Below the pieces are notes generated by a model. That model ran no database searches. It saw only the letters and a program-made list of their open reading frames with translations, and was not told the origin of the DNA. This document shows, piece after piece, positions 24,483 to 50,928 of a DNA stretch of 64,000 bases (position 1 is the first letter of the stretch; each line of letters begins with the position of its first letter). The stretch comes from Tabrizicola piscis (GTDB lineage Bacteria; Pseudomonadota; Alphaproteobacteria; Rhodobacterales; Rhodobacteraceae), in assembly GCF_003940805.1 (NCBI RefSeq), contig NZ_CP034328.1:1718001-1782000 (forward strand), written 5' to 3'. The position numbers and the translations under genes are program-made.

Positions 24483-25381
24483 TGCTGACTTGGGGTCTGG
24501 TGGCCACGGTGAAAGCGCCGGAGGCCGAAGTGCTGGCCTTTGTCGCGCATCATCTGTCCCTCGGGGCGACCCGGATCTGGCTCTACTTCGACGACCCTGA
24601 CGATCCGACCTTCGCCATTGTGGCGCGCCTGCCCCGCGTCACCGCCACTCGTTGCACCGAGGCCTATTGGGCAGCTCAAGGCGGTCGGCATGACCGGCAC
24701 CAGAACCGTCAGGCCCGAAACGCCCGCAATGCGCAGCGGGATTGCGATCTTGATTGGCTGGGGCATCTGGATGTGGACGAATACCTCCATGCCCCCCGCC
24801 CTGTGGCCGACATTCTGGCTGAACGCCTATTGACAGACGTCGCCCTGCGGATGGAACCGTTCGAGGCCGTGCACACCCCCGGCCTGCCGGATGACATCTT
24901 CACCGCGCGGCACTTCCGCGGCCCGCTCCGCGATGCCCAGCGCGACCTTCGCGCGCCGGTTCTGGGGCTGTACCGGTCAATCCTGCCCAAGGGCCATCTC
25001 AGCCATTCCGTCGGCAAAAGCTTCTGCCGACCAGCCGTGCGCGGCGTCGGGCTGCGTCTGCACGCCGTCTACATGAAGCAGGAACGGATCGACACGCCCT
25101 TCAATCCCGAACTGCGCGTCCTGCACTTTCACGCGCAGGACTATGACGCCTGGCGCAAGGCGCTCCCCTTCCGGCTGGAACGCGGGGCCTATCAGTATCA
25201 CCCCGACTTGCAGCATCATCTGACCGGCGCGACCGAGAAGGTGATAAAGCATTTCTACGACGCAACCCAGACTCTGACGCCGGAAAAGCTTGCGCTGCTT
25301 GAACAGCATGACCGCCTTGTCACAACCGATCTGGGCCTGAAAGCCAAGGTCGACGCGTTGCTGTCAGGTGCCTACGACTGA
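24482..25381 (+). CDS. Glycosyltransferase family 2-like protein
   Basis: A 299-residue cytoplasmic protein of the Glyco_tranf_2_4 type. The nucleotide-sugar/metal motif is DVDE at residues 97-100 in LGHLDVDEYL, preceded by the N-terminal EAEVLAFVAHHLSLGATRI strand-helix. Such genes in Rhodobacteraceae are often scattered and of unknown acceptor. It is coupled to the transglycosylase gene by TGATG, so a cell-envelope role is plausible. Its last 18 bases overlap the end of the haemoglobin gene on the other strand. Confidence 0.8.
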   Translation: MLTWGLVATVKAPEAEVLAFVAHHLSLGATRIWLYFDDPDDPTFAIVARLPRVTATRCTEAYWAAQGGRHDRHQNRQARNARNAQRDCDLDWLGHLDVDEYLHAPRPVADILAERLLTDVALRMEPFEAVHTPGLPDDIFTARHFRGPLRDAQRDLRAPVLGLYRSILPKGHLSHSVGKSFCRPAVRGVGLRLHAVYMKQERIDTPFNPELRVLHFHAQDYDAWRKALPFRLERGAYQYHPDLQHHLTGATEKVIKHFYDATQTLTPEKLALLEQHDRLVTTDLGLKAKVDALLSGAYD

Positions 25382-25768
25382 CCCTTCGTCGCGGTTCACC
25401 AGCATCAGCGCGGCACGCCGGAACGTAACCATGACCTCTGCCCGCTCACGTTCGGCCACCCCGGTATCGGACATCGCGCGCTCCATCACGGCAAGCCAGT
25501 CCTCTGCATCCTTCCGGCGGATGTCCACATGCGCATGGATCTCGCGCAGGTTCATGTGGCCGTGACGTTCGTGGTAATACCGCCGCCCGCCGAAGAACCC
25601 GCACAGAAAGTCAAACTGCTCCGGCCGGACATGGGAAAGGCCATGGCCCTTCAGATGCAGGTCCATGATCGTCTTGCCCTGAGGCAGCGTTTCGATCAGG
25701 TCGTAAAAGTGGTTCACCAACAGATGAACCTGCCCTTCGCCCCCAATCCTTTCGATCATCGGTTCCAT
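25364..25768 (-). CDS. Truncated haemoglobin, group II-like
   Basis: A 134-residue 2-on-2 globin. The proximal haem ligand is H78 in LREIHAHVDI, the B-helix has FYDL (21-24), and the Trp of EDWLAVMERA occupies the G8 position that marks groups II and III. These proteins bind O2 or NO and can detoxify NO. It starts 5 bases after the tdm stop on the same strand, so it is almost certainly co-transcribed with TMAO demethylase. Its role there is unknown; protection of haem or iron enzymes of the pathway is one possibility. Confidence 0.85.
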   Translation of the reverse strand: MEPMIERIGGEGQVHLLVNHFYDLIETLPQGKTIMDLHLKGHGLSHVRPEQFDFLCGFFGGRRYYHERHGHMNLREIHAHVDIRRKDAEDWLAVMERAMSDTGVAERERAEVMVTFRRAALMLVNRDEGSVVGT

Positions 25769-25773
25769 GAACG

Positions 25774-28143
25774 TCAGCTTTGCGGGCGCGTCTTCTTCGG
25801 GTCGTAGTGCGACAGCGGCACGATCACCGCCGGCAGCCGCTTTTGCTGGCCGTCCAGCTTGCCCACTTCCAGCGCCGTGCCCACGTCCGCGTGCGCCACA
25901 TCCACCCGCGCCAGCGCGATGTTCTTGCCGAGCAGAGGTGATCGCATCGAGGACGTCACCTCACCCACCTGCGCGCGGCCGATGTGCAGGCAGTCGCCAT
26001 GGCCGACATCCACCGCCGCGTCGATCTCCAGCCCAACGAACTTCCGCGACGGGTGTTCCTTCCGCCGGATCAGCGCCTCGCGTCCGATGAAATCATCGGT
26101 CTTGCCCTTCAAGGGCACGGTAAAGCCAATCCCGGCCTCGAACGGGTCGGTCTGGTCGCTGAAATCATAGCCCGCGAAGATCAGCCCTGCCTCGATCCGT
26201 ACCATGTCCAAAGCGGCAAGACCCATCGGCTTCAAACCAAGGTCGGCCCCATATTCCCACACCGCGTCATAGACCGCATTCCCATCCTTCGGATGACAGA
26301 ACACCTCGAACCCCAGCTCCCCCGTATACCCCGTCCGCGACACCACGACCGGGGCACCAGTTGGCCCGCCAACCCGCCCTATGGTGAACCGGAACCAGCC
26401 CAGTTCGTCGATCGTCGGCTGGTGCGGCGCGGTCCAGATCATCCGCTTGGTGATCTCGCGGCTGTTCGGCCCCTGCACCGCAAGGTTATGCAACTGGTCG
26501 GTTGAAGACCGCACCATCGCCTGCATCCCCAGCTTTTCCGCCTGCTCCCGGATCCAGATCCCGCCGTAATCATCCCCGCCGATCCAGCGGAATTGGTCGC
26601 GGCCCAGACGGAACAGCGTTCCGTCATCGATCATCCCGCCATGGTCGTAGCACATGGCCGAATAGACCACCTGACCTTGGCTCAGTTTCTTCACATCCCG
26701 CGTCAGCACCCATTGCATCAAGGCCTCGGCGTCCGGCCCGGTGACTTCCCATTTGCGCAAGGGCGACAGGTCCAGCACCACCGCCGCTTGCCGGCAGGCC
26801 CAGTATTCCTCCAACACCCCGTTCTGCGAATAGGTCTGGGGCAGCCAGTAGCCCTTGTATTCCACGTGGTGACGGGTCTTTGCAGAAATCCGGTCGTGGA
26901 ACGCAGTTTCCTTGGTCATCTTCGGCTCCGCATCGGGCGTGGGGCGATAGGCGATGGAGCGGCTGAATTTTTCCGCCCCCGAATAGGTGCGAACGTGAAT
27001 GTCGCTCAGATACCAGCCGTTCGCGGGCGATGTATCATCCGGGCAGGCCGAATTGACGCAGACAATATCCGTCAGGGCCCGAAACAGCACATAATCCCCC
27101 GGCCGCGACCAGGGTTCATCGCTGATCAGCACGCCATGTGAATCAATGTTCGTATTGAAGAACAGGTTCACGGCCATCCACCCGGGCCGGGGGTCCACCC
27201 CATGTCGCGCCAGCGCAGTGTTGAAGTTGTCCGAGCAGTTCACATGCCCCGGATAGCCGATGTCGTCGTAATATTTCGCCGCACAGGCCATCGCAAAGGC
27301 ATCATGCCGGCCCACCGTGTCCTGCACCACTTCAACCAGCGGCACCCAGTCCTGATCGTAGTACTTTGAGTGCAGGCCGGGCATCGAATAGGCATGGCCC
27401 ATGAAGGTCCGGCTGGTGGTCACGTCCAGCGGATGCTGAATGCCCCGGTCCAGCTTGCGCGCGTCAAAGCACTGGAAATCGGTGCACTGCCGCCCGTCCA
27501 CATCAAGGATCTGGATATAGTCCCCGGCCTTGACGAAGTAACTTTCCGCCGTCGCCGACTTGACCCGCAGGTCAAGCACCGGATCGGCCAAAGGATCAGG
27601 CAGGTCATGCTGTCCCACCATTGGCGGGTTTGCCCGGTGCACCAGCAGTGTCAGCGGCGTCGCAGTATCCTGCGCGTCCGGCGCCATCGGCAGGCCCGGT
27701 GCCGACACGACCAACCACCCCTCGTCCAGAACGTCCAGCTCTGCCCGCGCGCCCGCCTGGGTGTCCTGGCCGAACAGCCGGACCCCACCCGCCTTCGCCA
27801 GATCGATCCCGCGCGCTTCCAGCGCCCGCCGCAACCGCACCAGACCGGCATCGCCAGCAACCAGCATCGCCTTCAGCGCCTCGACGGTAGAGTTCGCGGC
27901 CCGGCCCAGAATTGCCGCATCAATCCGCCCATCCTTTGCCGCCGCGACAAGTTCAGCCGGCTGGCCGCCTTCGTCATTGACCAGCACCAGCCGATCCCCC
28001 GAAGACACTTGCAACAGCACCGCCCCACCCCCGGGAATCACATGCCTTTCCCGCCCATGGTGACGCGAAAACCCCAGTGGCGTGATAATCCGGCTGGGAC
28101 GTGGCGGGCCGGGATTGACCGTCGGATAGGCAAGATCGAGCAT
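25774..28143 (-). CDS. tdm: Trimethylamine N-oxide demethylase (DUF1989-GcvT fusion)
   Basis: Converts TMAO to dimethylamine and formaldehyde, the latter captured on tetrahydrofolate. The 789-residue protein has the Tdm architecture: an N-terminal region of about 190 residues, a DUF1989 domain (about 195-395) and a GcvT/aminomethyltransferase domain (about 415-775). C287, C303 and C367, spaced 16 and 64 residues, match the zinc ligands as I recall them for the characterised Methylocella enzyme. The folate domain shows SRTGYTGELGFEV. The ATG has a GGGGA ribosome site. An inverted repeat lies 36 bases upstream in the gap shared with the EamA gene. Confidence 0.9.
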   Translation of the reverse strand: MLDLAYPTVNPGPPRPSRIITPLGFSRHHGRERHVIPGGGAVLLQVSSGDRLVLVNDEGGQPAELVAAAKDGRIDAAILGRAANSTVEALKAMLVAGDAGLVRLRRALEARGIDLAKAGGVRLFGQDTQAGARAELDVLDEGWLVVSAPGLPMAPDAQDTATPLTLLVHRANPPMVGQHDLPDPLADPVLDLRVKSATAESYFVKAGDYIQILDVDGRQCTDFQCFDARKLDRGIQHPLDVTTSRTFMGHAYSMPGLHSKYYDQDWVPLVEVVQDTVGRHDAFAMACAAKYYDDIGYPGHVNCSDNFNTALARHGVDPRPGWMAVNLFFNTNIDSHGVLISDEPWSRPGDYVLFRALTDIVCVNSACPDDTSPANGWYLSDIHVRTYSGAEKFSRSIAYRPTPDAEPKMTKETAFHDRISAKTRHHVEYKGYWLPQTYSQNGVLEEYWACRQAAVVLDLSPLRKWEVTGPDAEALMQWVLTRDVKKLSQGQVVYSAMCYDHGGMIDDGTLFRLGRDQFRWIGGDDYGGIWIREQAEKLGMQAMVRSSTDQLHNLAVQGPNSREITKRMIWTAPHQPTIDELGWFRFTIGRVGGPTGAPVVVSRTGYTGELGFEVFCHPKDGNAVYDAVWEYGADLGLKPMGLAALDMVRIEAGLIFAGYDFSDQTDPFEAGIGFTVPLKGKTDDFIGREALIRRKEHPSRKFVGLEIDAAVDVGHGDCLHIGRAQVGEVTSSMRSPLLGKNIALARVDVAHADVGTALEVGKLDGQQKRLPAVIVPLSHYDPKKTRPQS

Positions 28144-28178
28144 GGCATTCCCCAGTCAGGCAGCAGGGCTGATTTTAA

Positions 28179-28203
28179 TGAGGATAAAACTTGTTCATCC
28201 TCA
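28179..28203. promoter_or_regulatory. Inverted repeat in the tdm/EamA divergent gap
   Basis: TGAGGAT (28179-28185) and ATCCTCA (28197-28203) form a perfect inverted repeat around 11 bases that include AAACTTGTTC. It is the only strong symmetry in the 115-base gap between two divergent genes, so a bound regulator could control both. The central AAACTTGTTCAT resembles elements upstream of amt, the APC gene, dmmD, mgsA and the XRE gene. Confidence 0.55.
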
Positions 28204-28258
28204 AGAATAGCGCCACGCTTAGGGTGACACAAGCGCGGGAAGGGAGGAAGGCAGGAAA

Positions 28259-29119
28259 ATGCTGGCTTTGGGCTTTGGGCTGACCGCCGCTCTGATCTGG
28301 GCGTTTCACGATCTCTTTGCCCGCAAGCTTAGCCAAGGCGCGGCGCTGTTGCCGATCCTGACCGTGGTGATGGGCGCGGGCTGCCTTGTGCTGATCCCCG
28401 TAGCCCTCGCCGTCGGGGATTGGGATGCAATGACCGGCCCTGCCTGGGCAATTGCCTGCCTGTCAGGCGTTGGCATCGTGATGGCGATGGGTTGCCTGTA
28501 CAAGGCGTTCAGTCTGGCTCCGGTCCGGCTGGTGTCACCTGTGGTGGGGGCCTATCCGATCCTTTCGCTGGCCGCCGCCGTGCTGCAGGGTCGCCCGGTC
28601 AGCGGGGCCGACTGGCTGGCCGTGCTGGCCATCTGCATCGGCATCACCATCGTCGCGTGGTCCACACGCGGCGACTCGGCTGAAGGCTATGCCGCGTCAC
28701 CCGCTGTCGCTCTGGCCTGGGCCGCCGTATCTGCCATCGGCTTTGCCCTGACCTTCGCCCTCGGGCAAGAGGCGGCGCGGCAGGGCGCTGACCTGCCGGT
28801 GATCCTCACCGGGCGGATCGTGGCGCTGAGCATATTCGTCGCGCTGCTGATTTGGCACCGGGGGTCGCTCGCCCCACAGCGCGGCCATTTTCCCGTTCTG
28901 ATCGTGATGGGCATCATCGACGCGGTTGCCCTTGGCCTGGTGACCGCCGCAGGCGGGTTGCCCCGGGCCGAGTATGCCTCGGTCTCCTCGTCGTTGTTCG
29001 GCGTGCTTACGGTCCTGCTTGCCGCGTGGTTCCTGAAGGAAAGCGTCCGCCCGGTTCAATGGCTTGGCATCGCGGCAGTCTTCTCGGGCATTGCCCTGCT
29101 TGGCCTGCAGGGGATGTAA
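28259..29119 (+). CDS. EamA/DMT family transporter
   Basis: A 286-residue protein with ten hydrophobic helices in two EamA halves (LTAALIWAFHDLFARKLS near the start; SVSSSLFGVLTVLLAAWFLKESV, split at residues 239-261, near the end). Drug/metabolite transporters export or exchange small metabolites. It is divergent from tdm and surrounded by methylamine genes, so it might move methylated amines or a pathway product, but substrate cannot be read from sequence. It ends 18 bases from the convergent regulator gene. Confidence 0.8.
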   Translation: MLALGFGLTAALIWAFHDLFARKLSQGAALLPILTVVMGAGCLVLIPVALAVGDWDAMTGPAWAIACLSGVGIVMAMGCLYKAFSLAPVRLVSPVVGAYPILSLAAAVLQGRPVSGADWLAVLAICIGITIVAWSTRGDSAEGYAASPAVALAWAAVSAIGFALTFALGQEAARQGADLPVILTGRIVALSIFVALLIWHRGSLAPQRGHFPVLIVMGIIDAVALGLVTAAGGLPRAEYASVSSSLFGVLTVLLAAWFLKESVRPVQWLGIAAVFSGIALLGLQGM

Positions 29120-29137
29120 GCGCGGGCAGCCCCACCC

Positions 29138-30142
29138 CTACTCCGCCGCCGCGACGCCACTTCCGCCGGCCCGGCGCAGGGACAGCGTCAGCCGCCGCTC
29201 ATCCCGCGGGCTGACGCCAAAGATCTCGGTATAATGCCGCACCATCGGGCTTGAGGTCATGTACCCGACCGAGGCGGCAATCTCGCGCAGGCTGTCGTTG
29301 GAATACAGCACCCGTTGCCGTGCCTTGGTCAGCCGCAACTGGTGGTAAAACCGCAACGGGCTTTGCCCGGTTTCCCGCTTGAACATCCGCTCGAAATGCC
29401 GTCCGGAAAGCCCCACCGCACTGGCCACATCGGGGATCCGCAGCGGGTCTTCGACATGGGTCTCGAACAGCCGGATCGCCTCACGGATCACCGCTGGCAG
29501 GGCGTCGGTCGTGCCGCCCGCCCGCGCAACCGGCACTTTCTGGCTGGCATCAGCGTCACGCACGAAGGGATGCTGGAACCAGCAGGCCACCTCGGTCATG
29601 CAGTCGCGGCCAAGCCGTTCCTCGATCAGGCGCAGCATCAGGTCGAACACCGCACCTGCGCCGGAAACGGTCACCCGCCGCCCCTCGCGCTGGATGGTGG
29701 CGTCGCGGGCCACCACAGTCGGAAAATCGACCTTGAACGCCGCCTCATAGCACCAATGGACGGAACAGGCCCGCCCGTCCATCAACCCGGCCCGGGCCAG
29801 CGGAAAAATCCCGCCGGAAAAGGCGCCCAAGGTCACCCCGGTCCGATCCAACCACCGCAACCGTGCCGGACTGCGGCGCGGGTCCGCGAACACGGCCGTA
29901 GGTGGCGAGATCAGGTACACCTGATCCAACCCCTCAACCTCTTGCAAGGTCACATCCGGTTCAAACCCGATCTCCGCCGAAGATCTGACCGGCACCTTGG
30001 TTTCAGCCACCAGTTTCCAGTCGAATTCCCGCTTCCCGGTGATTTCGTTTGCCGCGCGCAGGGGCTCGATTGCCGAGGTCAGGCATGCCATCGGAAATCC
30101 CGGGAACATCAGGAACCCAAGGCGCAGGGGACCGCCAGCCAT
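29138..30142 (-). CDS. GlxA family transcriptional regulator (AraC type)
   Basis: A 334-residue regulator with an N-terminal DJ-1/PfpI-like domain (about 5-175, LRLGFLMFPGFPM; no nucleophile Cys in the usual elbow, which reads GAFSGGIFPL) and a C-terminal AraC double helix-turn-helix (about 225-315, SGRHFERMFKRETGQSPLRFY, split at residues 250-270). GlxA-like regulators control glycine betaine and carnitine genes in related bacteria. The ATG at 30140-30142 shares one base with the dmmC stop, so it is the last gene of the dmm operon and probably controls it. Confidence 0.87.
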   Translation of the reverse strand: MAGGPLRLGFLMFPGFPMACLTSAIEPLRAANEITGKREFDWKLVAETKVPVRSSAEIGFEPDVTLQEVEGLDQVYLISPPTAVFADPRRSPARLRWLDRTGVTLGAFSGGIFPLARAGLMDGRACSVHWCYEAAFKVDFPTVVARDATIQREGRRVTVSGAGAVFDLMLRLIEERLGRDCMTEVACWFQHPFVRDADASQKVPVARAGGTTDALPAVIREAIRLFETHVEDPLRIPDVASAVGLSGRHFERMFKRETGQSPLRFYHQLRLTKARQRVLYSNDSLREIAASVGYMTSSPMVRHYTEIFGVSPRDERRLTLSLRRAGGSGVAAAE

Positions 30143-31212
30143 CAGTCGTCCGGCCACCAACCGGGCGAGGTTGGTGCGCCGTCATCGTGCTTTGCCAACC
30201 ATTCCACCATCGCCGGGCGATTGCGGATAAAGCCCTTGTAGGTCGCCAACTCCTCCGGCAGGTCACGCACCACCCGATGCAACCGCCGCGCCCACTTCGG
30301 GACCGTGACAATCTCGTTGAAGCTGGCAAGGTAGCAGCGGATGTCAAAGGCAATCGCGTTCGACCGGGGCAGGCGATACAGGCTTTGCAGTTCCACCCGA
30401 AGGTGCTGCTTGTCGCCAAGGTTTTCCGGCGTCAGCGTCGTCTTGGTCGGCCCCCAGATCGGATAGGTCTCGGGCGCGGTGTCCAGCAGCGGGTTGACCG
30501 TCATCGTCCAGTTGAACCGCCGCACGGGTGAACCGTGCTGCAGTTTCATCAGGAATTTCAACGCCCGGTCGAACACGCCCTTCTCATGCGCCAAGGGCAC
30601 CGGCGCGTGCCATTCATGGAAATTCATGCCGACATCAAAATCCAGCGACCAGTCCGCCTGACTGGTCACCATGCCCGCATCCATCCAAAGCGTGCCGTCG
30701 CGTTCGTCCTGCAGGCTGAAGTCGCCTTGGGTCTGCCGCGTGATGTATTCGAACGGTCCATAGGGCAAGGTCGACTCGTCAAGGAATGTGAACGTATGGT
30801 CAATTCCAAGCGGCCGGTTCACCCAGTGCCAGCGTTTGCCATCCTTGGTCAGCGAAAACCAGTGCGGATAGTCCCGCGCCTTGGCTTCCATGATCAACTC
30901 AAGCAGGTCCCAACCGGCCAACGTCATGTGCGGCAGGCTTTGGCAGCGCAGCGGGTCATCGGCCAGCACCTTGGCGCGGTCGATCATCTCGGCGACGTAG
31001 TGCTCGTCCACATCCAGAATATGTTCAAACGCCGTGCCTTTGCGCCCCGGAACATGCGGCTCCATGTTGACCGAATACATATAGTCATCGCGGTCAAACG
31101 GGAACGGAAACCGCCGGATATTCTGGGGCGAGTTGCGATAGGTGAAGTCTTCGCGGAAGGTTTCATCCCGAAAGAAATCGTTGAACGCGCCCGGTTTGAA
31201 ATCAAGGCTCAT
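30142..31212 (-). CDS. dmmC: Dimethylamine monooxygenase haem subunit (DUF3445, haem-dependent oxidative N-demethylase)
   Basis: A 356-residue protein of the DUF3445 family, the haem-containing PAS-fold oxidative N-demethylases. In the dmmDABC system it is the oxygenase component turning dimethylamine into methylamine. The opening FRDETFREDFTYRNSPQNI and later PFDRDDYMYSVNMEPHVPG (19 residues) fit the family, as does the C-terminal RLHRVVRDLPEELATYKGF. It follows the reductase gene by 9 bases and its TGA overlaps the regulator ATG. The subunit letter is assigned from gene order D-A-B-C. Confidence 0.87.
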   Translation of the reverse strand: MSLDFKPGAFNDFFRDETFREDFTYRNSPQNIRRFPFPFDRDDYMYSVNMEPHVPGRKGTAFEHILDVDEHYVAEMIDRAKVLADDPLRCQSLPHMTLAGWDLLELIMEAKARDYPHWFSLTKDGKRWHWVNRPLGIDHTFTFLDESTLPYGPFEYITRQTQGDFSLQDERDGTLWMDAGMVTSQADWSLDFDVGMNFHEWHAPVPLAHEKGVFDRALKFLMKLQHGSPVRRFNWTMTVNPLLDTAPETYPIWGPTKTTLTPENLGDKQHLRVELQSLYRLPRSNAIAFDIRCYLASFNEIVTVPKWARRLHRVVRDLPEELATYKGFIRNRPAMVEWLAKHDDGAPTSPGWWPDD

Positions 31213-31221
31213 GATCGTCTC

Positions 31222-32184
31222 CTATCGGTCGATGACAAGGGTCTTGCCTTCGAAACGGCTGACGCAGGGCATGATCTTCTTGCCCTCTGCGTGTTCTTCG
31301 GGGCTTAGCCAGTGGTCACGGTGCAGGATCGTACCATCGCATTTGTGAACAACCGTTTCACATTGCCCGCAGGCACCGCCCCGGCACAGGTAGGGTGCAT
31401 CGACACCGGCGGCCTCCATCGCCTCCAGCAGCGACTGCGTGGTGCCAACGGTGATCGTCTTGCCCGTGGCCGCAAGCTGCACCTCGAACGGCAGCCCCGT
31501 GCCCGGGGCCAGAAACTCTTCATGGTGCAGCGCCAATGGGGGCCAGCCCATCGCCTCGGCCGTCGAAAGCACCCAGTTGATCATGCCCTTCGGGCCGCAG
31601 ACGTAAAGATGGGTCCCGATCGGCTGCATCGACAGGATGCGTGACAGATCAATCGCCTGCTGTTCCTCGTCGAAATAGCAATGCACCTGGTCAGGATAGG
31701 CCGCCGTCAGTCGGTCCATATAGGCCCCCAAACCGCGGTTGCGGGCTGCGTAATGCAGCTCGAACCGGCCGCCGAAATGGGTCAGCTGCGCGATCTGCGC
31801 CAGAAACGGCGTGATGCCGATCCCGCCCGCAATCATCAGATGTTTGCGCGCCCGCGTGTCCAGCGGGAACAGGTTGACGGGATAGGACAGCGTCATCTCC
31901 ATGCCGACATGCACATGCCGGTGCATGTAAAGCGACCCGCCGCGCCCCTGATCATCGCGGCGCACGCTGATCTCATAGCCGGACCGATCCTCGGGGTCTG
32001 ACATAAGGGAATAGGGGTTCAGCCTGCGCAGGCCGTGGTCATCCATCTCGACAACCGTATGCGCCCCGCCCGAGAACGCGGGCAGCGGCGACCCATCGCG
32101 GCTGACAAACCGAAAGCGCGTGATCAGGTCATTGACCGGCACCACCTCGGCCACGCGGACGTGAAGTTTTGCACCGCCGCTCAT
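31222..32184 (-). CDS. dmmB: Dimethylamine monooxygenase reductase subunit (FNR-type with 2Fe-2S ferredoxin domain)
   Basis: A 320-residue phthalate-dioxygenase-reductase-like protein. The flavin domain has LNPYSL (55-60), the NAD(P)H domain has GGIGITPFL (120-128) and VCGPKGM, and the C-terminal ferredoxin domain has cluster cysteines C267, C272, C275 and C307. It passes electrons from NAD(P)H to the haem subunit encoded next. The ATG overlaps the dmmA stop by four bases (32181-32184). Confidence 0.88.
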   Translation of the reverse strand: MSGGAKLHVRVAEVVPVNDLITRFRFVSRDGSPLPAFSGGAHTVVEMDDHGLRRLNPYSLMSDPEDRSGYEISVRRDDQGRGGSLYMHRHVHVGMEMTLSYPVNLFPLDTRARKHLMIAGGIGITPFLAQIAQLTHFGGRFELHYAARNRGLGAYMDRLTAAYPDQVHCYFDEEQQAIDLSRILSMQPIGTHLYVCGPKGMINWVLSTAEAMGWPPLALHHEEFLAPGTGLPFEVQLAATGKTITVGTTQSLLEAMEAAGVDAPYLCRGGACGQCETVVHKCDGTILHRDHWLSPEEHAEGKKIMPCVSRFEGKTLVIDR

Positions 32185-32798
32185 GTGAACCTCACCACCG
32201 GCTCAGGAACCTGACCGGGATCCTCGGCGTCGATGTTCACCCCCTGAAACGCGGCGATGCGCCGGGAATAATGGTCGCGCACAAAGAGGTTAAGCCCACA
32301 ATGGCTGCACTTGAACGGGTCCGTCGCGACGTTTTCGGTGATCCCCTTGCAATGCACGCATTGCACCCGGCGGACGGTCGACCCGCGATGTTCCTTCTGG
32401 ATCGCGCCCACCGGAAAGCCCGTGGCCATGATCTCGCGCTCCGCCTGGCCGATCAGGCCCTCGGTCCCGGCAAGATAGAACTGCGTGCCCATATGCGCAT
32501 CGGCCAGCACCCGGATCAGCCGGGGCAACAGCGCCGGAATGGTCGGCGCGCGGAAGAACTGCGCCACGCCCAGCGCCTTCAGACGGTCGCTCCGGTCCGT
32601 GCCATTCGGCCCGGGCGCATAGATCACATGCGCCGAGGCCAAGATTTCCGAACGATTGTTCGCCTTGGCCAGCATATCCGTCACGGCATCCGCGCCCTCG
32701 CCATCGGCGACCATCAGATGCAGCCGCCCCGGTCTCGGCTCCAGCGGAGCATAGACCGGGCGACTGCGAATTGTCGGAACAACGGGGGTCAGCGTCAT
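32181..32798 (-). CDS. dmmA: Dimethylamine monooxygenase subunit DmmA
   Basis: A 205-residue protein whose C-terminus has a four-cysteine metal site: C147/C150 (CVHC) and C164/C167 (CSHC), a rubredoxin or zinc-ribbon layout. The N-terminal domain (about 20-130) has a strand-helix pattern (RLHLMVADGEGADAVTDML) without a known motif. The dmmABC products together have been reported to give dimethylamine monooxygenase activity. ATG 32796-32798 is 7 bases after dmmD; an upstream open extension is not used. Whether the site binds iron or zinc is undetermined. Confidence 0.85.
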   Translation of the reverse strand: MTLTPVVPTIRSRPVYAPLEPRPGRLHLMVADGEGADAVTDMLAKANNRSEILASAHVIYAPGPNGTDRSDRLKALGVAQFFRAPTIPALLPRLIRVLADAHMGTQFYLAGTEGLIGQAEREIMATGFPVGAIQKEHRGSTVRRVQCVHCKGITENVATDPFKCSHCGLNLFVRDHYSRRIAAFQGVNIDAEDPGQVPEPVVRFT

Positions 32799-37762: not shown

Positions 37763-37867
37763 GTCTCCCATCCCCTGTTGCGTCTGCCCCCTGTCAGTCC
37801 GGGCGGCTTATCGGACGATTTAACCATGGGGTGCCAACGGCCCGGCGCGGGAATCTTCATGACTGGC

Positions 37868-43320: not shown

Positions 43321-44010
43321 TCAGTAGGAGGCCGCATTGTCGATGTTGAACGTGTAAAGCTTGCGGGCCGAGCCATAGCGGCGGAACTCTTCCGGCTTCG
43401 CCTTCCCTTCGGCTTCACCCCGGCGCAGCAGCTCTTCAACCATGGCGTAGTGTTCGTCGCGCATTTCCTTTTCGATGCAGTCCGCACCCAGAGATTTCAC
43501 CGACCCGCGCACGAAAATCCGCGCCTCATAAAGGCTGTCGCCCAAGGCCTCACCTGCATTGCCCAGCACCACCACGTTGCCCGACTGCGCCATGAAGCAG
43601 GACATGTGCCCGATGTTGCCATGCACCACGATGTCGATGCCCTTCATCGAAATCCCGCAGCGGCTGGAGGCGTTGCCCTTGATGACCAGCAATCCCCCCC
43701 GCCCGGTAGCGCCCGCATATTGCGAGGCGTCGCCGTCGATGATGACCGTGCCGGACATCATGTTTTCGGCCACACCCGGCCCGGCTGACCCCTTGATCCG
43801 GATCGTCGCCTGCTTGTTCATCCCGGCACAGTAGTACCCGGTGGACCCCCGCACGGTGATTTCAACCGGCGCATCCACCCCGGCGGCAATCGCATGGGCG
43901 CCCTTGGGATTGATCACCTCCCACGCCGTCATGTTGGTTTGCCCCTTCAGTGCATGCAGCGAGGAATTGAGCGTTCGCAGCCCCTGCGCCCCAAGATCGT
44001 AAGTCTGCAT
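43321..44010 (-). CDS. mgsB: N-methylglutamate synthase subunit B (GXGXG domain)
   Basis: A 229-residue protein equal to the C-terminal right-handed beta-helix (GXGXG) domain of glutamate synthase. The repeats are seen in IKGSAGPGVAENMMSG, GDASQYAGATGRGGLLVIKG, split at residues 116-135, and GNIGHMSCFMAQSG. It is a structural subunit that shapes the ammonia or methylamine tunnel. ATG 44008-44010 follows mgsA by four bases; an open extension upstream overlaps mgsA and is not used. Confidence 0.91.
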   Translation of the reverse strand: MQTYDLGAQGLRTLNSSLHALKGQTNMTAWEVINPKGAHAIAAGVDAPVEITVRGSTGYYCAGMNKQATIRIKGSAGPGVAENMMSGTVIIDGDASQYAGATGRGGLLVIKGNASSRCGISMKGIDIVVHGNIGHMSCFMAQSGNVVVLGNAGEALGDSLYEARIFVRGSVKSLGADCIEKEMRDEHYAMVEELLRRGEAEGKAKPEEFRRYGSARKLYTFNIDNAASY

Positions 44011-44014: not shown

Positions 44015-44911
44015 TCAACGCTCCCAGAAGTAGACAGTGGCGGGTTCGGGTTCCCAGACCCGGGCGGTTTCGATGCCGGGCAGGTTGACCAAGGCGCGGT
44101 ATTCGGACCCGAAGGCCACATAATCATCGGTTTCCGCCATCACGGCGGGCTTGCAGGCGATGGGATCGCGCACAACGCCAAAGCCGTTCTTGGTGCCGAC
44201 GACGAAGGTGAAGAAGCCGTCCAGATCGTCCAGCCCGGATTCCAGGGCGGTGCCCAGATCTTCGCCCTCTTTCAGCTTCTGGCTGACATAGGCGGCGGCA
44301 ACTTCGGTGTCGTTCTGGGTCTCGAAGGTCATGCCCTTGCGGATCAGTTCCCGACGCAACCCGTTGTGGTTGGACAAGGAGCCGTTGTGGACAAGGCACT
44401 GGTCCGGCCCGGTGGAAAAGGGGTGCGCGCCCATGGTCGTCACGGCGGATTCCGTCGCCATACGGGTGTGGCCGATCCCATGCGTGCCATGCATCTTGGC
44501 CAGATCAAAGCGGCGGGCCACGTCTTTCGGCAGGCCGACCTCCTTGAAGATTTCAATGCTGTCCCCCGCGCTCATCACCTTGACGTCGGGGCGCAGGTGG
44601 GCAAGGGCGGAACGGGCGGCGTCCAGCTGGCCCAGCGGCACCTCCAGCACGGCATGGGTGGATTTCACCAGCATCGCCACCGGCTGCCCGATTGCCGCAT
44701 GCAGGTCACCGTCAAGGTCCTTGAAGTCCCGCTCGGGGTGGGGCGACTGGATGGTGATCTTGCCCAATCCGTCCTTGGCCCCGGAATAGATCGCGATCCC
44801 GGCGGAATCCGGCCCCCGGTCCGTCATCGTGATCAACATGTCCGTCAGCATCGCGCCCAGATGGGGCTCCAGCTTCGGGTCCTTCAGGAACAGCCCAACG
44901 ATGCCGCACAT
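44015..44911 (-). CDS. mgsA: N-methylglutamate synthase subunit A (class II glutamine amidotransferase)
   Basis: A 298-residue Ntn-hydrolase domain. Starting at ATG 44909-44911 the nucleophile is Cys2 (MCGIVGLF), followed by TDRGPDSAG, GHTRMATES, HNGSLSNHNGLR and QNDTEVAAAYV, the glutamine-site motifs. It would release methylamine from gamma-glutamylmethylamide and deliver it to MgsC. First gene of mgsABC-gmaS. The frame is open further upstream, but processing needs Cys at position 2. Confidence 0.93.
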   Translation of the reverse strand: MCGIVGLFLKDPKLEPHLGAMLTDMLITMTDRGPDSAGIAIYSGAKDGLGKITIQSPHPERDFKDLDGDLHAAIGQPVAMLVKSTHAVLEVPLGQLDAARSALAHLRPDVKVMSAGDSIEIFKEVGLPKDVARRFDLAKMHGTHGIGHTRMATESAVTTMGAHPFSTGPDQCLVHNGSLSNHNGLRRELIRKGMTFETQNDTEVAAAYVSQKLKEGEDLGTALESGLDDLDGFFTFVVGTKNGFGVVRDPIACKPAVMAETDDYVAFGSEYRALVNLPGIETARVWEPEPATVYFWER

Positions 44912-45202: not shown

Positions 45203-45862
45203 TTACCCCTGCGGGTAACAGATCACCGACAGATAGCGCGCCGGCAGTTTCACCAGCGTCTCCGGCCCATGGGGCGCATCGGCGTCGAAGAACAGGCTGT
45301 CGCCTGGTTTCAAAGCGTAAACCTCGTCACCGTGGCGATAGTCGACCTCGCCCTCCAGCATGTACAGAAGCTCCAGCCCTTCATGCTGGAACGCGGGGAA
45401 GGTGTCGCTCTCGGTCGTGAGGGTGATGATATAGGGTTCTACCACCACGCCCGAACTGTTGGACCCGATATGACCCAGCAGATTGTACTGATGCCCCGCC
45501 CTTGTGCCCCGCCGTTCAATCTCGATATGCGCGCCGGCCTTTACATGCTGCGCCTCGCGGCGTTCTTCATAGCTTTTGAAGAAGGCCGTCACGGGCACCG
45601 AAAACGCGTGGGACAGCACTTGCAGCGTCGTCAGACTGGGTGAGGTGTTGCCATTCTCGATCTTGGACAGCATGCCGATCGACAGGCCCGTCACCGCCGC
45701 AAGATCGGCGACGGTCATCCCCTGCTGGCGACGGAAATTGCGCACCTCGCGGCCAATCGCGGCCTCAAGGTTGCGCTCGCTGATTTCACGCAGGCGGTGG
45801 GGGTCCTGATCAAACGCAGGCTTGCCGCGTGGCAGGTTATGGCTGGCGTCACCGTCTGACAT
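45203..45862 (-). CDS. XRE family transcriptional regulator with C-terminal cupin
   Basis: A 219-residue regulator. The helix-turn-helix is at about residues 38-92 (GMTVADLAAVTGLSIGMLSKIENGNTSPS, recognition helix SIGMLSKIENG) and a cupin sensor domain fills about 140-215 (GLELLYMLEGEVDYRHGDEVY, split at 160-180; DAPHGP). Relatives such as PuuR-type proteins regulate amine and amino acid use. It sits between mgdABCD and mgsABC-gmaS in the same orientation, making it the prime candidate for control of methylamine genes. An inverted repeat overlaps its own promoter. Confidence 0.88.
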   Translation of the reverse strand: MSDGDASHNLPRGKPAFDQDPHRLREISERNLEAAIGREVRNFRRQQGMTVADLAAVTGLSIGMLSKIENGNTSPSLTTLQVLSHAFSVPVTAFFKSYEERREAQHVKAGAHIEIERRGTRAGHQYNLLGHIGSNSSGVVVEPYIITLTTESDTFPAFQHEGLELLYMLEGEVDYRHGDEVYALKPGDSLFFDADAPHGPETLVKLPARYLSVICYPQG

Positions 45863-45880
45863 GGTCGTGCCCTGCAACAA

Positions 45881-45926: not shown

Positions 45927-45935
45927 GCCAAACCC

Positions 45936-46490
45936 TCAGAACGCTGCGGCGGCCGCCACTTCCACCGCATGCAGCAGGCTTGCCGCGCTGGATCGTGGGC
46001 CAAGAACCCGCGCAGCACCGGGGCCGTGCTTGACCAGATAGCAGCCCAGATGGTCGATCACCGTCCGCGTCGCATAGCCATCTGGGACGGCGCGAAAATC
46101 GACATTGCACAGCCGCTCCAGCACGGGCGCAAGATCGGGCGCGGCAAGGTCAAGGATCACCCAGGCGTCAGTCTGTTCCGTGATGCTGGCCGCGTCGCCG
46201 AAGGCTGCTTTCAACAGGGCCACGATGTCCTCATGGCTGGCAAAAGGGGCTTCGACAAACCACATCTCCGGGGCCACCCAGAAGGCGCTGTAGGGCGCAG
46301 CTGACTGATGCCGCCCCGGCCCCGGCAAGGGCACGCCCGCCGCGCTGGCAGCCGTGGCAAGGTCCCGCCCGCGCCGTGCCGCGACTGACGCCAGCGCCAC
46401 GTCAAACCGTTCCGTCACCACCAGCGGACCTATAGCCACGGTCTGCGCCGCATCCGCCCCAAGCGCCGTCATTGCCCGCAAATCAGCCAC
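45936..46490 (-). CDS. mgdD: N-methylglutamate dehydrogenase subunit D (sarcosine oxidase gamma-like)
   Basis: The small gamma-type subunit of the heterotetrameric dehydrogenase, 184 residues. SoxG-like features are IGPLVVTERFDVALASVAARRG, split at residues 20-41, WVAPEMWFVEAP and the C-terminal RTVIDHLGCYLVKHGPG. The start is taken as GTG 46488-46490, which overlaps the mgdC stop by 8 bases; ATG 46470-46472 is the alternative. Gamma subunits stabilise the complex near the folate domain. It ends the mgdABCD operon, 73 bases before the regulator gene. Confidence 0.86.
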   Translation of the reverse strand: MADLRAMTALGADAAQTVAIGPLVVTERFDVALASVAARRGRDLATAASAAGVPLPGPGRHQSAAPYSAFWVAPEMWFVEAPFASHEDIVALLKAAFGDAASITEQTDAWVILDLAAPDLAPVLERLCNVDFRAVPDGYATRTVIDHLGCYLVKHGPGAARVLGPRSSAASLLHAVEVAAAAAF

Positions 46491-49383
46491 GCAACCGCTC
46501 CCCTTCCGGATCGACAAAATGCGGGCTGACGATGTCCACCAGCGTTTCCGTCCCGCCCACCAGATTGACCGCCCGCATCCGGCTGCCAATCTTGCGGTCC
46601 CCGCCCTTCAGATAGCCCAGCGCAATGTCGCTGCCGACATGCGGTGAATAGACCTTGGAGGTCAGCCACCCCCCGTCATTCGCCGCAACCGGGGCCGCGC
46701 CGATGTCCAGAAAATGGCTGCCTGCGGTCAGTTTTCCATTGGGATCAACCGGCTTCACTCCGACCAGCCGATAGCCATCCGGGTCCACCAACCCTTCACG
46801 CTGGGACAAGACCATGCCGATGGAATCCTTCTTCTTCGACACCATCTTCCCCAGTCCCATGTTCAGCGCGGTGGACTGCCCGTTCAACTCACCCCCCGCG
46901 ACATGGCCCTTTTCGATCCGCATCACGCCCAGCGCCTCGGTGCCGTAGACGATGGGTTCAAACTCTGCCCCCCGCGCCAGCATCTCGCGCAACAGCGCAT
47001 CGCCATAGCGGGTCGGAACCGCGATCTCATAGGCCAACTCGCCCGAAAAGCTGATCCGGAACAGCCGTGCCCGCAGCCCGCCAACGGTGATGTTCCCGGC
47101 CCCCATGTAGGGAAATGCCGCATCGCTGATGTCCTGATCGACGATCTTCTCCAGCAGCCGCCGCGCGTTTGGCCCTGCGACGGAAAACTGCGCCCAGGCT
47201 TCGGTCGTGCTGATCAGCTGCACATCCATATCCGGCCACAGGCACTGACGGCAAAACTCCAGATGCCGGAAGACCGTGACAGCGTTCGCCGTGGTCGTCG
47301 TCATCACATATTCATGTTCCGCCATCCGCGCCGTCGTGCCGTCGTCAAAGACGATCCCATCCTCGCGCAGCATCAGGCCATAGCGGCACTTGCCAACCGC
47401 GAGAGTGCTGAATGTATTGGCATAGACCCGGTCCAGAAACGCCCCTGCGTCCGTCCCCTGAATGTCGATCTTGCCCAGTGTCGTGACATCGCAAATCCCG
47501 ACCGACCGCCGCGTCGCAAGAACCTCGCGGTCGACCGACTGCCGCCACTCCGTCTCGCCCGCCTTCGGCACCCATTGCGTCCGCAGCCAGTTGCCGACTT
47601 CGACAAAGGTCGCCCCCTGCTCGGCCGCCCAGTGGTGGCTGGGCGTCAACCTGAACGGCTTGAACTCCTTGCCGCGCGACCGCCCCGCCAGCGCGCCCAT
47701 CGCAACAGGGGTATAGGGCGGGCGATAGATTGTGGTGCCCGTCTCGGGGATCGACCGCCCCGTCAGTTCGGCCATCACCGCAAGACCGATGACGTTGCCG
47801 GTCTTGCCCTGATCCGTTGCCATCCCCAGCGTGGTATAGCGCTTCATATGCTCGACGCTGGTGAAGTTCTCCTGCGCCGCCAGCTTGATGTCCTTCACGG
47901 TCACATCGTTCTGCTGGTCGATCCAGGCCCGCCCCTTGCCATGCGCCACATACCAAAGCGGGGCGATCTTCACTGCCGCATCCTCGGCCTCCGGCAGGTC
48001 CGCTGTCGCCGTCAGCCCAAGTGCCGCAGCCGCCGCATCCCGACCGGTGCGCAATGCCCCATGGGTGGAAAACACCCCTGCCGCCGCCCCTGCAACAGAC
48101 AGGCCCGGCGGGCCATCAACGCCGGGCACAAACGCCGCAATCGACGCATCCCAGACCGGACGCGAACGGTGATGCGAATGAATATTCACATTCGGGTTCC
48201 AACCGCCCGAAACCCCCAGTGCATCGACAGCAATCTCCCGCGTCCGGCCCGAGGCATCGCGCACTGTCACCGACTTCAGCCCCAAGCGGCCCGAGGTATC
48301 AATCACCTCATCCCCCGAACGCGAGTCGATGACCGCGACCACCTCCACGCCCTTTGCCTGCAGGTCGCTTGCCGTGCGCAGCCCGTCATCATTGTTGGTG
48401 AAAACCGCCACCCGCTCACCGGCTTTGACGCCCCAGCGGTTCGCATAGGCCCGCAAGGCCCCCGCCAACATGATCCCCGGCCGGTCGTTGTTCTCGAACG
48501 CAATCGGCCGCTCGGTGGCCCCACCGCACAGCAGCGCCCGGTGTGAGTAGATGCGCCAAAGCACCTGCCGCGGCTTGCCGGGAGCAGGCACCGCCAGATG
48601 GTCAGAAACCCGCTCCACCGCGGCATAGATGCCATGGTCGAAGGCCCCGACCACCGTCGTCCGTACCATCAGCCGGACGTTCGGCATGGCTGCCAGTTCC
48701 GCCACGGTGACAGCGGCCCAATCGGCTGCAGAAGTGCCGCCCACGCCGAAGGTTTCGGCATTCAACCGCCCGCCAAACCGGAAATCCTCATCCGCAAGGA
48801 TCACACGCTTGCCCGCTCGCCCAGCGGTCAGCGCAGCCATCAGCCCCGCTGGACCGCCGCCGATGACCAGCAGGTCACAGTGCAGGAACCCCTTGTCATA
48901 TGTGTCCGGGTCCTCCTCCCGGCTGACCGAGCCAAGCCCGGCGGCGCGGCGGATGATCGGCTCATAAAGCTTTTCCCAGAAGGACTTGGGCCACATGAAG
49001 GTCTTGTAGTAGAACCCCGCCGCGAAGAAGGCGTTCAGCCGGTCGTTGATCGCCAGGGCGTCAAAGCGAAGGCTTGGCCAGCGGTTCTGGCTGTTCGCCT
49101 CCAGCCCGTCGAACAGTTCCGCGACCGTCGCCCGCGTATTCGGTTCCTGCCGCCCGCCGCTGCGCAACTCGACCAGCGCATTCGGCTCCTCCGACCCGGC
49201 TGACAAGACGCCGCGGGGCCGGTGATATTTGAAGCTCCGCCCCATCAACCGCACACCATTGGCCAGCAAAGCTGATGCCAGCGTGTCCCCCGGATGCCCC
49301 TGATAGGGCAGCCCGTCAAAGGTGAAGCGAATCGTTTTCGTCCGGTCGATCTGCCCGCCCTCAATCCGATGCGATTGCGTCAT
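46483..49383 (-). CDS. mgdC: N-methylglutamate dehydrogenase subunit C (sarcosine oxidase alpha-like)
   Basis: The 966-residue large subunit. N-terminally it has a 2Fe-2S-like/SoxA domain (TKTIRFTFDGLPYQGHPGDTL, split at residues 14-34), then an NAD/FAD Rossmann fold (LLVIGGGPAGLMAALTAGRAG, about 168-188, split), and a C-terminal GcvT-type tetrahydrofolate domain (about 580-960, with the FSGELAYEIAV pattern). The complex oxidises N-methylglutamate to glutamate and yields 5,10-methylene-tetrahydrofolate. It overlaps mgdB (ATGA, 49380-49383) and mgdD. Confidence 0.92.
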   Translation of the reverse strand: MTQSHRIEGGQIDRTKTIRFTFDGLPYQGHPGDTLASALLANGVRLMGRSFKYHRPRGVLSAGSEEPNALVELRSGGRQEPNTRATVAELFDGLEANSQNRWPSLRFDALAINDRLNAFFAAGFYYKTFMWPKSFWEKLYEPIIRRAAGLGSVSREEDPDTYDKGFLHCDLLVIGGGPAGLMAALTAGRAGKRVILADEDFRFGGRLNAETFGVGGTSAADWAAVTVAELAAMPNVRLMVRTTVVGAFDHGIYAAVERVSDHLAVPAPGKPRQVLWRIYSHRALLCGGATERPIAFENNDRPGIMLAGALRAYANRWGVKAGERVAVFTNNDDGLRTASDLQAKGVEVVAVIDSRSGDEVIDTSGRLGLKSVTVRDASGRTREIAVDALGVSGGWNPNVNIHSHHRSRPVWDASIAAFVPGVDGPPGLSVAGAAAGVFSTHGALRTGRDAAAAALGLTATADLPEAEDAAVKIAPLWYVAHGKGRAWIDQQNDVTVKDIKLAAQENFTSVEHMKRYTTLGMATDQGKTGNVIGLAVMAELTGRSIPETGTTIYRPPYTPVAMGALAGRSRGKEFKPFRLTPSHHWAAEQGATFVEVGNWLRTQWVPKAGETEWRQSVDREVLATRRSVGICDVTTLGKIDIQGTDAGAFLDRVYANTFSTLAVGKCRYGLMLREDGIVFDDGTTARMAEHEYVMTTTTANAVTVFRHLEFCRQCLWPDMDVQLISTTEAWAQFSVAGPNARRLLEKIVDQDISDAAFPYMGAGNITVGGLRARLFRISFSGELAYEIAVPTRYGDALLREMLARGAEFEPIVYGTEALGVMRIEKGHVAGGELNGQSTALNMGLGKMVSKKKDSIGMVLSQREGLVDPDGYRLVGVKPVDPNGKLTAGSHFLDIGAAPVAANDGGWLTSKVYSPHVGSDIALGYLKGGDRKIGSRMRAVNLVGGTETLVDIVSPHFVDPEGERLRG

Positions 49384-49664
49384 TTCGACCGCCCCCGACT
49401 GCGCGCCACATCGCGGGCCAGTTCCACCTTCAACACCTCATGTGTCACGGTGTTCCGCGTCACCACCAGCCACGACCTGTCGCCTTGCTCGTGAAACCAA
49501 AGCTCGCGGTGCTCCCCCGCCGGGTTGTCGCGGTTGTAAGCGTAGTCGTGAAACGCCTCGACCCCGGCTGTCATCCCGTCGGGCCGGTCGATCAACGACG
49601 CATCGCCAAGGTACACGAATTCCTGCGCGTCACGGGGTCCAAGGATTGGATGGTGAATGATCAT
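49380..49664 (-). CDS. mgdB: N-methylglutamate dehydrogenase subunit B (sarcosine oxidase delta-like)
   Basis: A 94-residue delta-type subunit. GPRDAQEF, RDNPAGEHRELWFHEQGDRSW and NTVTHEV align with SoxD. Classical SoxD binds zinc through a CxxC near the N-terminus and a later H/C pair; here the region reads HHPILGPRD and HEQGDRSW, so all cysteines are gone and zinc binding is doubtful. It is 13 bases after mgdA and overlaps mgdC. Confidence 0.9.
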   Translation of the reverse strand: MIIHHPILGPRDAQEFVYLGDASLIDRPDGMTAGVEAFHDYAYNRDNPAGEHRELWFHEQGDRSWLVVTRNTVTHEVLKVELARDVARSRGRSK

Positions 49665-49677
49665 TCCTAAACAGCCT

Positions 49678-50928
49678 TCAATGCAGGTTCGGGGTCGCGC
49701 CCTGACCCTTTTCGTCGATCATCAGACCCTTCAGGAACCGGTCAAACCGATAAGCCCGCGCCGTCGTATGCGACTCATCCTTCGCCAACAGATGCGCGAA
49801 ACACCAGCCACTGGCAGGCGTCGCCTTGAACCCGCCGTAGCACCAGCCCCCGTTGAAATAGAGACCCTCAACCGGTGTCTTGTCGATGATGGGCGACCCA
49901 TCCATCGACATATCCATGATCCCGCCCCAACTGCGCAGAAGCCGCACCCGGCCAATCGCGGGCATCAAGGCCATGCCACCTTCGGCCACATCCTCGATCA
50001 CCGGCAGGTTGCCGCGTTGGGCGTAGGAGTTGTAGCCGTCGATGTCGCCGCCAAAGACCAACCCGCCCTTGTCGGATTGCGAGACATAGAAATGCCCGGC
50101 GCCAAAGGTCATCACCCCGTCGATCAGCGGCTTCAGCCCTTCGGACACAAAGGCCTGCAACACATGGCTTTCAATCGGCAACCGCATCCCGGCATGGGCC
50201 ATCACCTTGGAGGACGACCCCGCCACCGCAACGCCCACCTTCTTCGCGCCGATATAGCCGCGTGACGTCTCCACCCCAAGAATCCGGCCGCCAACGATCC
50301 GCATCCCGGTGACTTCGCAGTTCTGGATCAGGTCCACGCCCCGCAGGTCCGCCCCGCGCGCGTAACCCCAGGCGACCGCGTCATGCCGCACCGTGCCGCC
50401 ACGGCGCTGCGCAATCGCGCCCTTGATCGGGAAGCGGGCGTTGTCGAAATTCAGCCAGGGGTAAAGTTTCCGCACCTGCTCGCGGCTCAGCATCTCGGCA
50501 TCCGCACCGTGCAGCATCATCGCATTGGCCCGCCGGGTGAAGGCGTCGCGCTGCGCGTCCGTGTGGATCAGGTTGATGATCCCGCGCTGCGAAACCATGG
50601 CGTTATAGTTGAAATCCTGCTCCAACCCCTCCCACAGCTTCAACGAAAACTCATAAAACGGCTCATTGCCGTCCAGAAGGTAGTTTGATCGAATGATCGT
50701 GGTGTTTCGCCCCACGTTCCCGCCACCCAGGTAGCCCTTTTCCAGCACGGCAATCCGCGCCTGACCAAACTCTTTGGCAAGGTAATAGGCCGTCGCCAGC
50801 CCGTGCCCACCGCCGCCGATGATGATGTAATCATACTCGGCCTGAGGCACCGGGTCGCGCCAGACGGGCTTCCAGCCCTTGTGGCCCGTCAACGCCTCGG
50901 CAATCACGCGAAACCCGGAATAGCGCAC
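49678..50928 (-). CDS. mgdA: N-methylglutamate dehydrogenase subunit A (sarcosine oxidase beta-like)
   Basis: A 416-residue FAD/FMN amine oxidoreductase of the DAO fold, carrying the substrate site. DYIIIGGGGHGLATAYYLAKE (split at residues 33-53) is the FAD-binding motif, followed by GNVGRNTTIIRSNY typical of SoxB, and GGWCYGGFKATPASG near the end. It starts with GTG (50926-50928) behind AGGAGAC. First gene of mgdABCD. Sarcosine is an alternative substrate, but gmaS and mgsABC next door point to N-methylglutamate. Confidence 0.91.
   Translation of the reverse strand: MRYSGFRVIAEALTGHKGWKPVWRDPVPQAEYDYIIIGGGGHGLATAYYLAKEFGQARIAVLEKGYLGGGNVGRNTTIIRSNYLLDGNEPFYEFSLKLWEGLEQDFNYNAMVSQRGIINLIHTDAQRDAFTRRANAMMLHGADAEMLSREQVRKLYPWLNFDNARFPIKGAIAQRRGGTVRHDAVAWGYARGADLRGVDLIQNCEVTGMRIVGGRILGVETSRGYIGAKKVGVAVAGSSSKVMAHAGMRLPIESHVLQAFVSEGLKPLIDGVMTFGAGHFYVSQSDKGGLVFGGDIDGYNSYAQRGNLPVIEDVAEGGMALMPAIGRVRLLRSWGGIMDMSMDGSPIIDKTPVEGLYFNGGWCYGGFKATPASGWCFAHLLAKDESHTTARAYRFDRFLKGLMIDEKGQGATPNLH

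Follow-up and report, generated by a model that had tools for sequence, protein, structure and literature searches.

We analysed a 64,000-nucleotide stretch of the Tabrizicola piscis genome (the window; 1.718-1.782 Mb of the main contig, genome size 4.39 Mb) that carries, between its positions 25364 and 50928, a run of genes assigned to the catabolism of trimethylamine (TMA), trimethylamine N-oxide (TMAO), dimethylamine (DMA) and monomethylamine (MMA). Read along the minus strand, the run begins with mgdA-mgdB-mgdC-mgdD, the gene of a helix-turn-helix (HTH)-cupin regulator, mgsA-mgsB-mgsC-gmaS, the gene of a universal stress protein (Usp), tmm, an Amt-like gene and tmoP, and continues with dmmD-dmmA-dmmB-dmmC, an AraC regulator gene, an EamA transporter gene (plus strand), tdm and a truncated globin gene (Table 1). 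A first-pass annotation had placed Tmm, Tdm, DmmDABC, GmaS, MgsABC and MgdABCD nearly contiguously on the minus strand, and family and domain matches confirm this: all are open frames on that strand within the interval. The same interval holds genes absent from its list, namely those of the truncated globin, EamA/DMT transporter, AraC regulator, TMAO permease, Amt-like protein, Usp and HTH-cupin regulator. No RNA family was found in positions 25000-51500 (Rfam, gathering scores). The identity and order of the genes are established here.

Table 1. Genes of the methylated-amine island in minus-strand order (window positions; percentages are identities)
Gene or product	Position	Strand	Evidence and remarks
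mgdA, SoxB-type flavoprotein subunit of N-methylglutamate dehydrogenase	49678..50928	-	TIGR01373 695 bits, cut-off 529; 82% to Paracoccus aminophilus MgdA
mgdB, SoxD-type subunit	49380..49664	-	TIGR01374 83 bits, under cut-off 116.5; 68% to P. aminophilus
mgdC, SoxA-type subunit with GCV_T folate domain	46483..49383	-	TIGR01372 1312 bits, cut-off 1164
mgdD, SoxG-type subunit	45936..46490	-	TIGR01375 47.7 bits, under cut-off 144; 36% to P. aminophilus; start uncertain (46490 GTG or 46472 ATG)
HTH-cupin (XRE/PuuR-like) regulator	45203..45862	-	HTH_3, Cupin_2; 68-74% relatives in P. aminophilus and Ruegeria conchae islands
mgsA, glutaminase-type (GATase) subunit of N-methylglutamate synthase	44015..44911	-	GATase_6, GATase_7; start (MCGIVG) inferred
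mgsB, GXGXG subunit of N-methylglutamate synthase	43321..44010	-	GXGXG; start inferred
mgsC, flavin mononucleotide (FMN) glutamate-synthase-type subunit	41895..43220	-	Glu_synthase 2.8e-87; 85% to P. aminophilus
gmaS, gamma-glutamylmethylamide synthetase	40555..41862	-	TIGR03105 ('type III glutamate--ammonia ligase') 658 bits, cut-off 469.6
Universal stress protein	39534..39947	-	Usp 1.2e-24; start inferred
tmm, trimethylamine monooxygenase	38009..39352	-	NF058570 839.8 bits, cut-off 675; 5iq4 over 1-447, 827 bits
Divergent Amt-family channel, methylated-amine-linked clade	36374..37771	-	Ammonium_transp (PF00909); beside tmm
tmoP, APC-type TMAO permease	34092..35855	-	NF053774 812 bits, cut-off 690; start inferred
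dmmD, folate-binding GcvT-like protein	32806..33945	-	GCV_T 2.6e-58; 72% to P. aminophilus
dmmA, dimethylamine monooxygenase subunit	32181..32798	-	DmmA-like N and C, NF041259; start inferred
dmmB, reductase subunit with 2Fe-2S	31222..32184	-	DmmA-like_N, Fer2, NAD_binding_1; 67% to P. aminophilus
dmmC, haem oxidative N-demethylase-type subunit	30142..31212	-	HODM_asu-like; 5lte 463 bits
AraC-family regulator, TmaR candidate	29138..30142	-	HTH_18; GbdR-like, below that family's cut-off; start inferred
EamA/DMT-family transporter	28259..29119	+	EamA; same place in relatives; 41% to DMT transporter of Ponticoccus island
tdm, TMAO demethylase (DUF1989 and GCV_T)	25774..28143	-	NF053776 1207 bits, cut-off 1100; 9q59 1258 bits over 4-789
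Group II truncated haemoglobin	25364..25768	-	Bac_globin 5.7e-21; 2xyk and others; named group II in some relatives

Enzyme assignments and the predicted pathway

The island very probably encodes a complete and conventional pathway of the kind known from roseobacters and Paracoccus, a conclusion carried by curated family matches, by near full-length solved matches for Tmm, Tdm and GmaS, and by the presence of folD and fhs in the genome. Tmm matched its curated equivalog family over its full length and above the cut-off; of its solved matches, 5iq4 is listed as a flavin-containing monooxygenase and is, we assume, a Tmm structure, while 6kbw, listed as trimethylamine monooxygenase, scored 590 bits. 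Tdm combines DUF1989, GCV_T and GCV_T_C and also exceeds its family cut-off. The dmmDABC genes stand in the expected four-gene order (folate, DmmA-like, reductase and haem oxidative demethylase subunits), and the single solved match of DmmC is a haem-dependent oxidative N-demethylase. GmaS scored above the TIGR03105 cut-off and best matched 7cql (600 bits; listed as type III glutamate--ammonia ligase, presumably a GmaS structure), followed by the glutamate--methylamine ligase 9qur (337 bits), and the next-best glutamine synthetase structure reached only 239 bits. Finally, the four Sox-like subunits are linked to gmaS-mgs and are nearest to known Mgd, and we take this operon as a predicted N-methylglutamate dehydrogenase.

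We infer the enzyme functions from characterised relatives and published pathways, which together suggest the following route. Tmm would convert TMA to TMAO, which could also be taken up by TmoP, and Tdm would split TMAO into DMA and a one-carbon (C1) unit, whose hand-over to tetrahydrofolate is suggested since Tdm carries a GcvT domain. DmmABC would demethylate DMA to MMA at the expense of O2 and NAD(P)H, the resulting C1 unit probably being taken up on folate by DmmD. GmaS, MgsABC and MgdABCD would then return the nitrogen of MMA to the glutamate family by way of gamma-glutamylmethylamide and N-methylglutamate, yielding another folate-bound C1 unit, and the C1 units would be oxidised by FolD and Fhs, encoded elsewhere in the genome. 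The island is probably switched on by an AraC-type regulator of the TmaR kind. The candidate lies directly after dmmC, with 46% identity to the mgd-side regulator of Ponticoccus and 30% to that of P. aminophilus. It is plausible that the locus enables growth on TMA, TMAO, DMA and MMA as carbon-oxidation and nitrogen source.

The C1 oxidation genes folD, fhs and purU had been reported as lying outside the window, rightly so: fhs (formate-tetrahydrofolate ligase) and the main folD are no more than 1 kb apart at ~1.24 Mb of the window's contig, 0.5 Mb from the island, and PurU had no match over its cut-off anywhere in the genome and two weak matches only, one being the window's formyltransferase at 17392-18300. 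Since no PurU exceeds the cut-off, the formate end of C1 oxidation would rest on Fhs.

Besides this gap at PurU, several observations on the Mgd operon weigh against a complete pathway. Among solved structures, those nearest to the Mgd subunits searched are sarcosine oxidases, the SoxD- and SoxG-type subunits score below their NCBIfam cut-offs, and in 15 of the 24 other Tmm-bearing genera (see below) the best MgdC relative lies far from gmaS or on a different contig, or no gmaS was found. The operon could instead encode a sarcosine oxidase of a glycine-betaine route, which would leave the pathway incomplete here: heterotetrameric sarcosine oxidases are the best solved homologues of both large Mgd-like subunits, the NCBIfam families of the subunits are named for sarcosine oxidase, and the alignment shows conservation of a beta-subunit histidine which we take to be the covalent-FMN site. 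The structure comparison does not decide the matter, because no listed chain is named N-methylglutamate dehydrogenase. Against a sarcosine oxidase, the operon ends ~1 kb from mgsA, and its best relatives (MgdC) lie within 25 kb of gmaS in the nine remaining genera (G066, G117, G050, G042, G093, G079, G099, G130 and G123). Moreover, the genome holds three soxA-family copies, and the window MgdC shares more identity with that of P. aminophilus (64.5%) than with its two own-genome paralogues (54% and 43%), the more distant of which (L234) may be the genome's sarcosine oxidase. We therefore regard a sarcosine oxidase in the window as very improbable, and retain the assignment as Mgd.

Conservation of the cluster

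The first-pass annotation had further presented the compact arrangement as unlike marine roseobacters, where the modules would be scattered. While its gene identities and pathway reading hold, this contrast does not, and we rejected contiguity as a new feature: such clusters are already published, and our synteny searches found them in relatives. The organism itself, placed in the genus Tabrizicola, is presumably no marine roseobacter. Articles are cited here by PMC number. In Ruegeria pomeroyi DSS-3 the whole pathway is described as 'clustered in the genome (SPO1548-1588)', with TmaR (SPO1584) located between dmm and mgd (PMC13390433), and a single methylotrophy island is reported for R. pomeroyi, Leisingera methylohalidivorans and Paracoccus sp. 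N5, the genes being partly scattered in Roseobacter denitrificans (PMC4543880). In P. aminophilus, growth on TMA was lost in a tmm double mutant (PMC4543880) and growth on DMA in dmm mutants (PMC5520151).

Conservation of the island was established as follows. In the genus, Tmm exceeded its cut-off in 22 of 24 relatives and in the own genome, the two relatives lacking it being 80% and 59% complete. Of the nine genus relatives whose stretches were fetched, every one has tmm, dmmDABC and the AraC gene ordered as in the window, and all seven with enough contig have mgs so ordered too; tdm followed by the globin gene was found in 7/9 and an Amt of the window's kind at this place in 5/9. Among the seven with a long enough stretch, two have mgd adjacent and five lack it within ~11 kb. 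Around Tmm, we recruited the best 80 of 589 loci, of which 39 shorter than 21.3 kb were left out and 41 with at least 10 kb on either side were kept; at identity thresholds of our choosing, 18 of these 41 hold tmm, gmaS, mgsC, dmmD and dmmC within 21 kb, ten of them together with tdm. In the family, Tmm was found in 25 of 100 sampled genomes (own included), and tmm, tdm, gmaS, dmmC and mgdC all lie within 30 kb in four of these 25 genera (the window's, G050, G079 and G117), the other 21 being scattered, incomplete or interrupted by contig ends (counted together).

A recent, strain-specific acquisition by a mobile element, as plasmid-borne related islands in Paracoccus, Thioclava, Ruegeria and Ponticoccus might suggest, is extremely unlikely and, judged from the sequence data, disfavoured because the island is genus-wide (Tmm counts above) with a chromosomal left flank (SLT and glycosyltransferase genes) common to 7/9 genus relatives, its GC content resembles that of the flanking DNA, the window contains no tRNA, and none of the 20 flanking frames scanned is an integrase. 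The island adds Tabrizicola to a pathway studied mainly in marine bacteria, in a compact organisation that is common in this genus.

Several smaller features accompany the island. The Usp gene, between gmaS and tmm, has the same place in many genus relatives and is yet fast evolving (56-75% identity). At the place of tmoP (compared at L041 and L056), one genus relative, L041, gave no permease match, with a weak (27%) Amt match there instead. In several relatives (L062, L071, L084 and others) mgsA and the HTH-cupin gene are separated by ~3.5 kb of additional sequence, of which there is none in the window. The EamA/DMT transporter gene, flanked by the AraC gene and tdm, runs opposite to both; DMT-family transporters are also annotated next to the globin of the R. 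conchae, Ponticoccus and Parasedimentitalea islands (comparison made for Ponticoccus alone).

The Amt-like channel and the truncated globin

The finding is ordinary in kind; less ordinary are two accessory genes, those of the Amt-like channel and the truncated haemoglobin. The Amt-like protein belongs to Pfam PF00909 and falls short of the TIGR00836 subfamily (197 bits against a cut-off of 343). Residues are numbered here as in mature AmtB, assuming an offset of 22 residues. With E. coli K-12 amtB aligned, F107, W148, D160, H168, F215, S219 and H318 agree with PMC10433425, which gives the S1 site as S219, W148 and F107 and reports greater methylammonium uptake for AmtB S219A than for wild type. 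The window protein departs from the full S1 site by a cysteine at Ser219 and keeps F107, W148, D160, H168 and H318.

A search of the 25 Tmm-bearing genera (E-value 1e-20) returned 41 Amt matches in two score classes. All 21 matches of at least 327 bits (20 genomes) lie within ~6 kb of tmm, tdm, gmaS, dmmC or mgdC, whereas none of the 20 at or below 148 bits, two of which have an internal stop, lies near such markers. In a tree of 21 linked and nine unlinked Amts (11 other unlinked matches, without locus, were left out) the two sets split at one branch with 100/100 support. Every linked protein carries Ala at F103, Phe at Q104, Phe at W212, Leu or Tyr at N216 and Cys at S219, while the nine unlinked ones have the AmtB residue at each of these sites; F107, W148, D160, H168, F215 and H318 are unchanged in all 30. 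The linked pattern recurs in the island Amts of Ruegeria conchae, Ponticoccus and Thioclava, and the island Amts of P. alcaliphilus and Paracoccus sp. MA combine Cys at 219 with Tyr and Phe in place of the pore histidines H168 and H318. These histidine-less Amts of two Paracoccus plasmids (L199 13690-15054 and L237 20087-21454) also have Val at F215. A second Amt (43-48%), on the opposite strand, stands between mgsA and the HTH-cupin gene in L056, L080 and L104.

The globin gene starts 5 bp past the tdm stop. In the 25 genera we found 11 globins in nine genomes, seven of them scoring above 70 bits, and six of these seven have a methylated-amine gene within ~1 kb: tdm for four (the window's among them), gmaS for one and dmmC for one. 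Plasmid islands of P. aminophilus, P. alcaliphilus, Paracoccus sp. MA, R. conchae and Ponticoccus also carry a globin (32 plasmid records matched, the surroundings of seven being inspected), and in Parasedimentitalea (pW43C, L201 7992-8376) it is split in two annotated frames, near mgsA and dmmA. Few genes are annotated around it there, as if the island were decaying.

These observations lead us to a joint reading that is possible but still rather doubtful. The Amt-like protein may represent a branch of the Amt/Mep family dedicated to methylated amines, its external site remodelled (S219C, N216L or Y, F103A and W212F, with the twin histidines and D160 retained) so as to carry methylammonium instead of ammonium, and perhaps also DMA or TMA, acting as an uptake, recapture or release valve; two Paracoccus plasmid islands might have taken a similar turn independently, with Cys at the same site and both pore histidines lost. 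The group II truncated haemoglobin, whose gene is probably co-transcribed with tdm, would likewise be an accessory dedicated to the pathway and would serve or protect the O2-using, haem-containing steps.

A number of points weigh against this joint reading. For the Amt, the tree program warned of long branches meeting, and all 25 genomes were selected for Tmm, so that the linkage count covers pathway-bearing genomes only. The linked type is missing from five of these 25 genomes: G050 and G117 hold the full cluster yet, like G061, gave no Amt at E 1e-20, and G077 and G119 have only canonical Amts. A window-type Amt is absent from its place in four of the nine genus relatives and present in only 10 of the 41 loci around tmm (from the best 80 of 589), and close homologues, seen without gene context, occur in other Proteobacteria. 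At all 12 sites checked, the island Amt of P. aminophilus has the canonical residue, and this Amt is said to be the sole copy in its genome, perhaps needed on NH4Cl (PMC3925955); the window protein may likewise serve ammonium, because its genome has no second Amt at E 1e-20. The histidine-less Paracoccus proteins are disfavoured as carriers, because single and double His-to-Ala variants of AmtB fail in methylamine transport (PMC3647058). For the globin, one strong (G050) and four weak matches are located elsewhere, no globin was found at E 1e-5 in 16 of the 25 genera, the globin examined in Aminobacter aminovorans lies away from methylated-amine genes, and the Thioclava stretch has no annotated globin.

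A recurrent amt in such clusters is already in print (PMC7574528, PMC4744692, PMC5520151). Our survey of the open literature, mostly at overview level, found no report of a separate Amt clade with an altered S1 site; 'globin' is absent from the main text of PMC13390433, PMC4543880, PMC7574528 and PMC5520151, and no paper linking a truncated globin to the pathway was found among the matches listed. The altered Amt clade is a fresh lead and, if it holds, the part that matters more, as we found no dedicated methylamine carrier described for this pathway in the open literature searched. If true, natural S219C Amts tied to methylamine genes would test Amt substrate choice.

Comparison with known islands

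One of the closest known counterparts, SPO1548-1588 of R. pomeroyi DSS-3, likewise unites tmm, tdm, dmmDABC, gmaS-mgs and mgd; this cluster includes an AraC regulator (TmaR) and is drawn with an amt (PMC13390433, PMC5520151, PMC4744692). The window differs by its APC-type TmoP, with no TmoXVW or GntR-type TmoR among the frames scanned, and these differences are modest.

The Paracoccus islands (P. aminophilus pAMI6, Paracoccus sp. MA plasmid and, via PMC4543880, Paracoccus sp. N5) have the same enzymes. P. aminophilus pAMI6 shares the window's order in tmm-tmoP-dmmDABC and tdm-globin, with 55-85% identity for the genes that matched, though only 36% for mgdD and 30% for the AraC regulator, and the fetched pAMI6 stretch, outside which mgsA lies, gave no match for amt, eamA and usp. 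In Paracoccus sp. MA the complete set lies in one plasmid stretch. Unlike the window, both the P. aminophilus and the Paracoccus sp. MA islands include folD and purU and carry other kinds of Amt.

Tabrizicola and its kin share a chromosomal cluster in which tmm, dmmDABC and the AraC gene are ordered as in the window, and vary in mgd adjacency, in the window-type Amt and in tdm-globin at the frequencies given above. Relative to the known islands, that of the window shows a small variation in transport and regulation.

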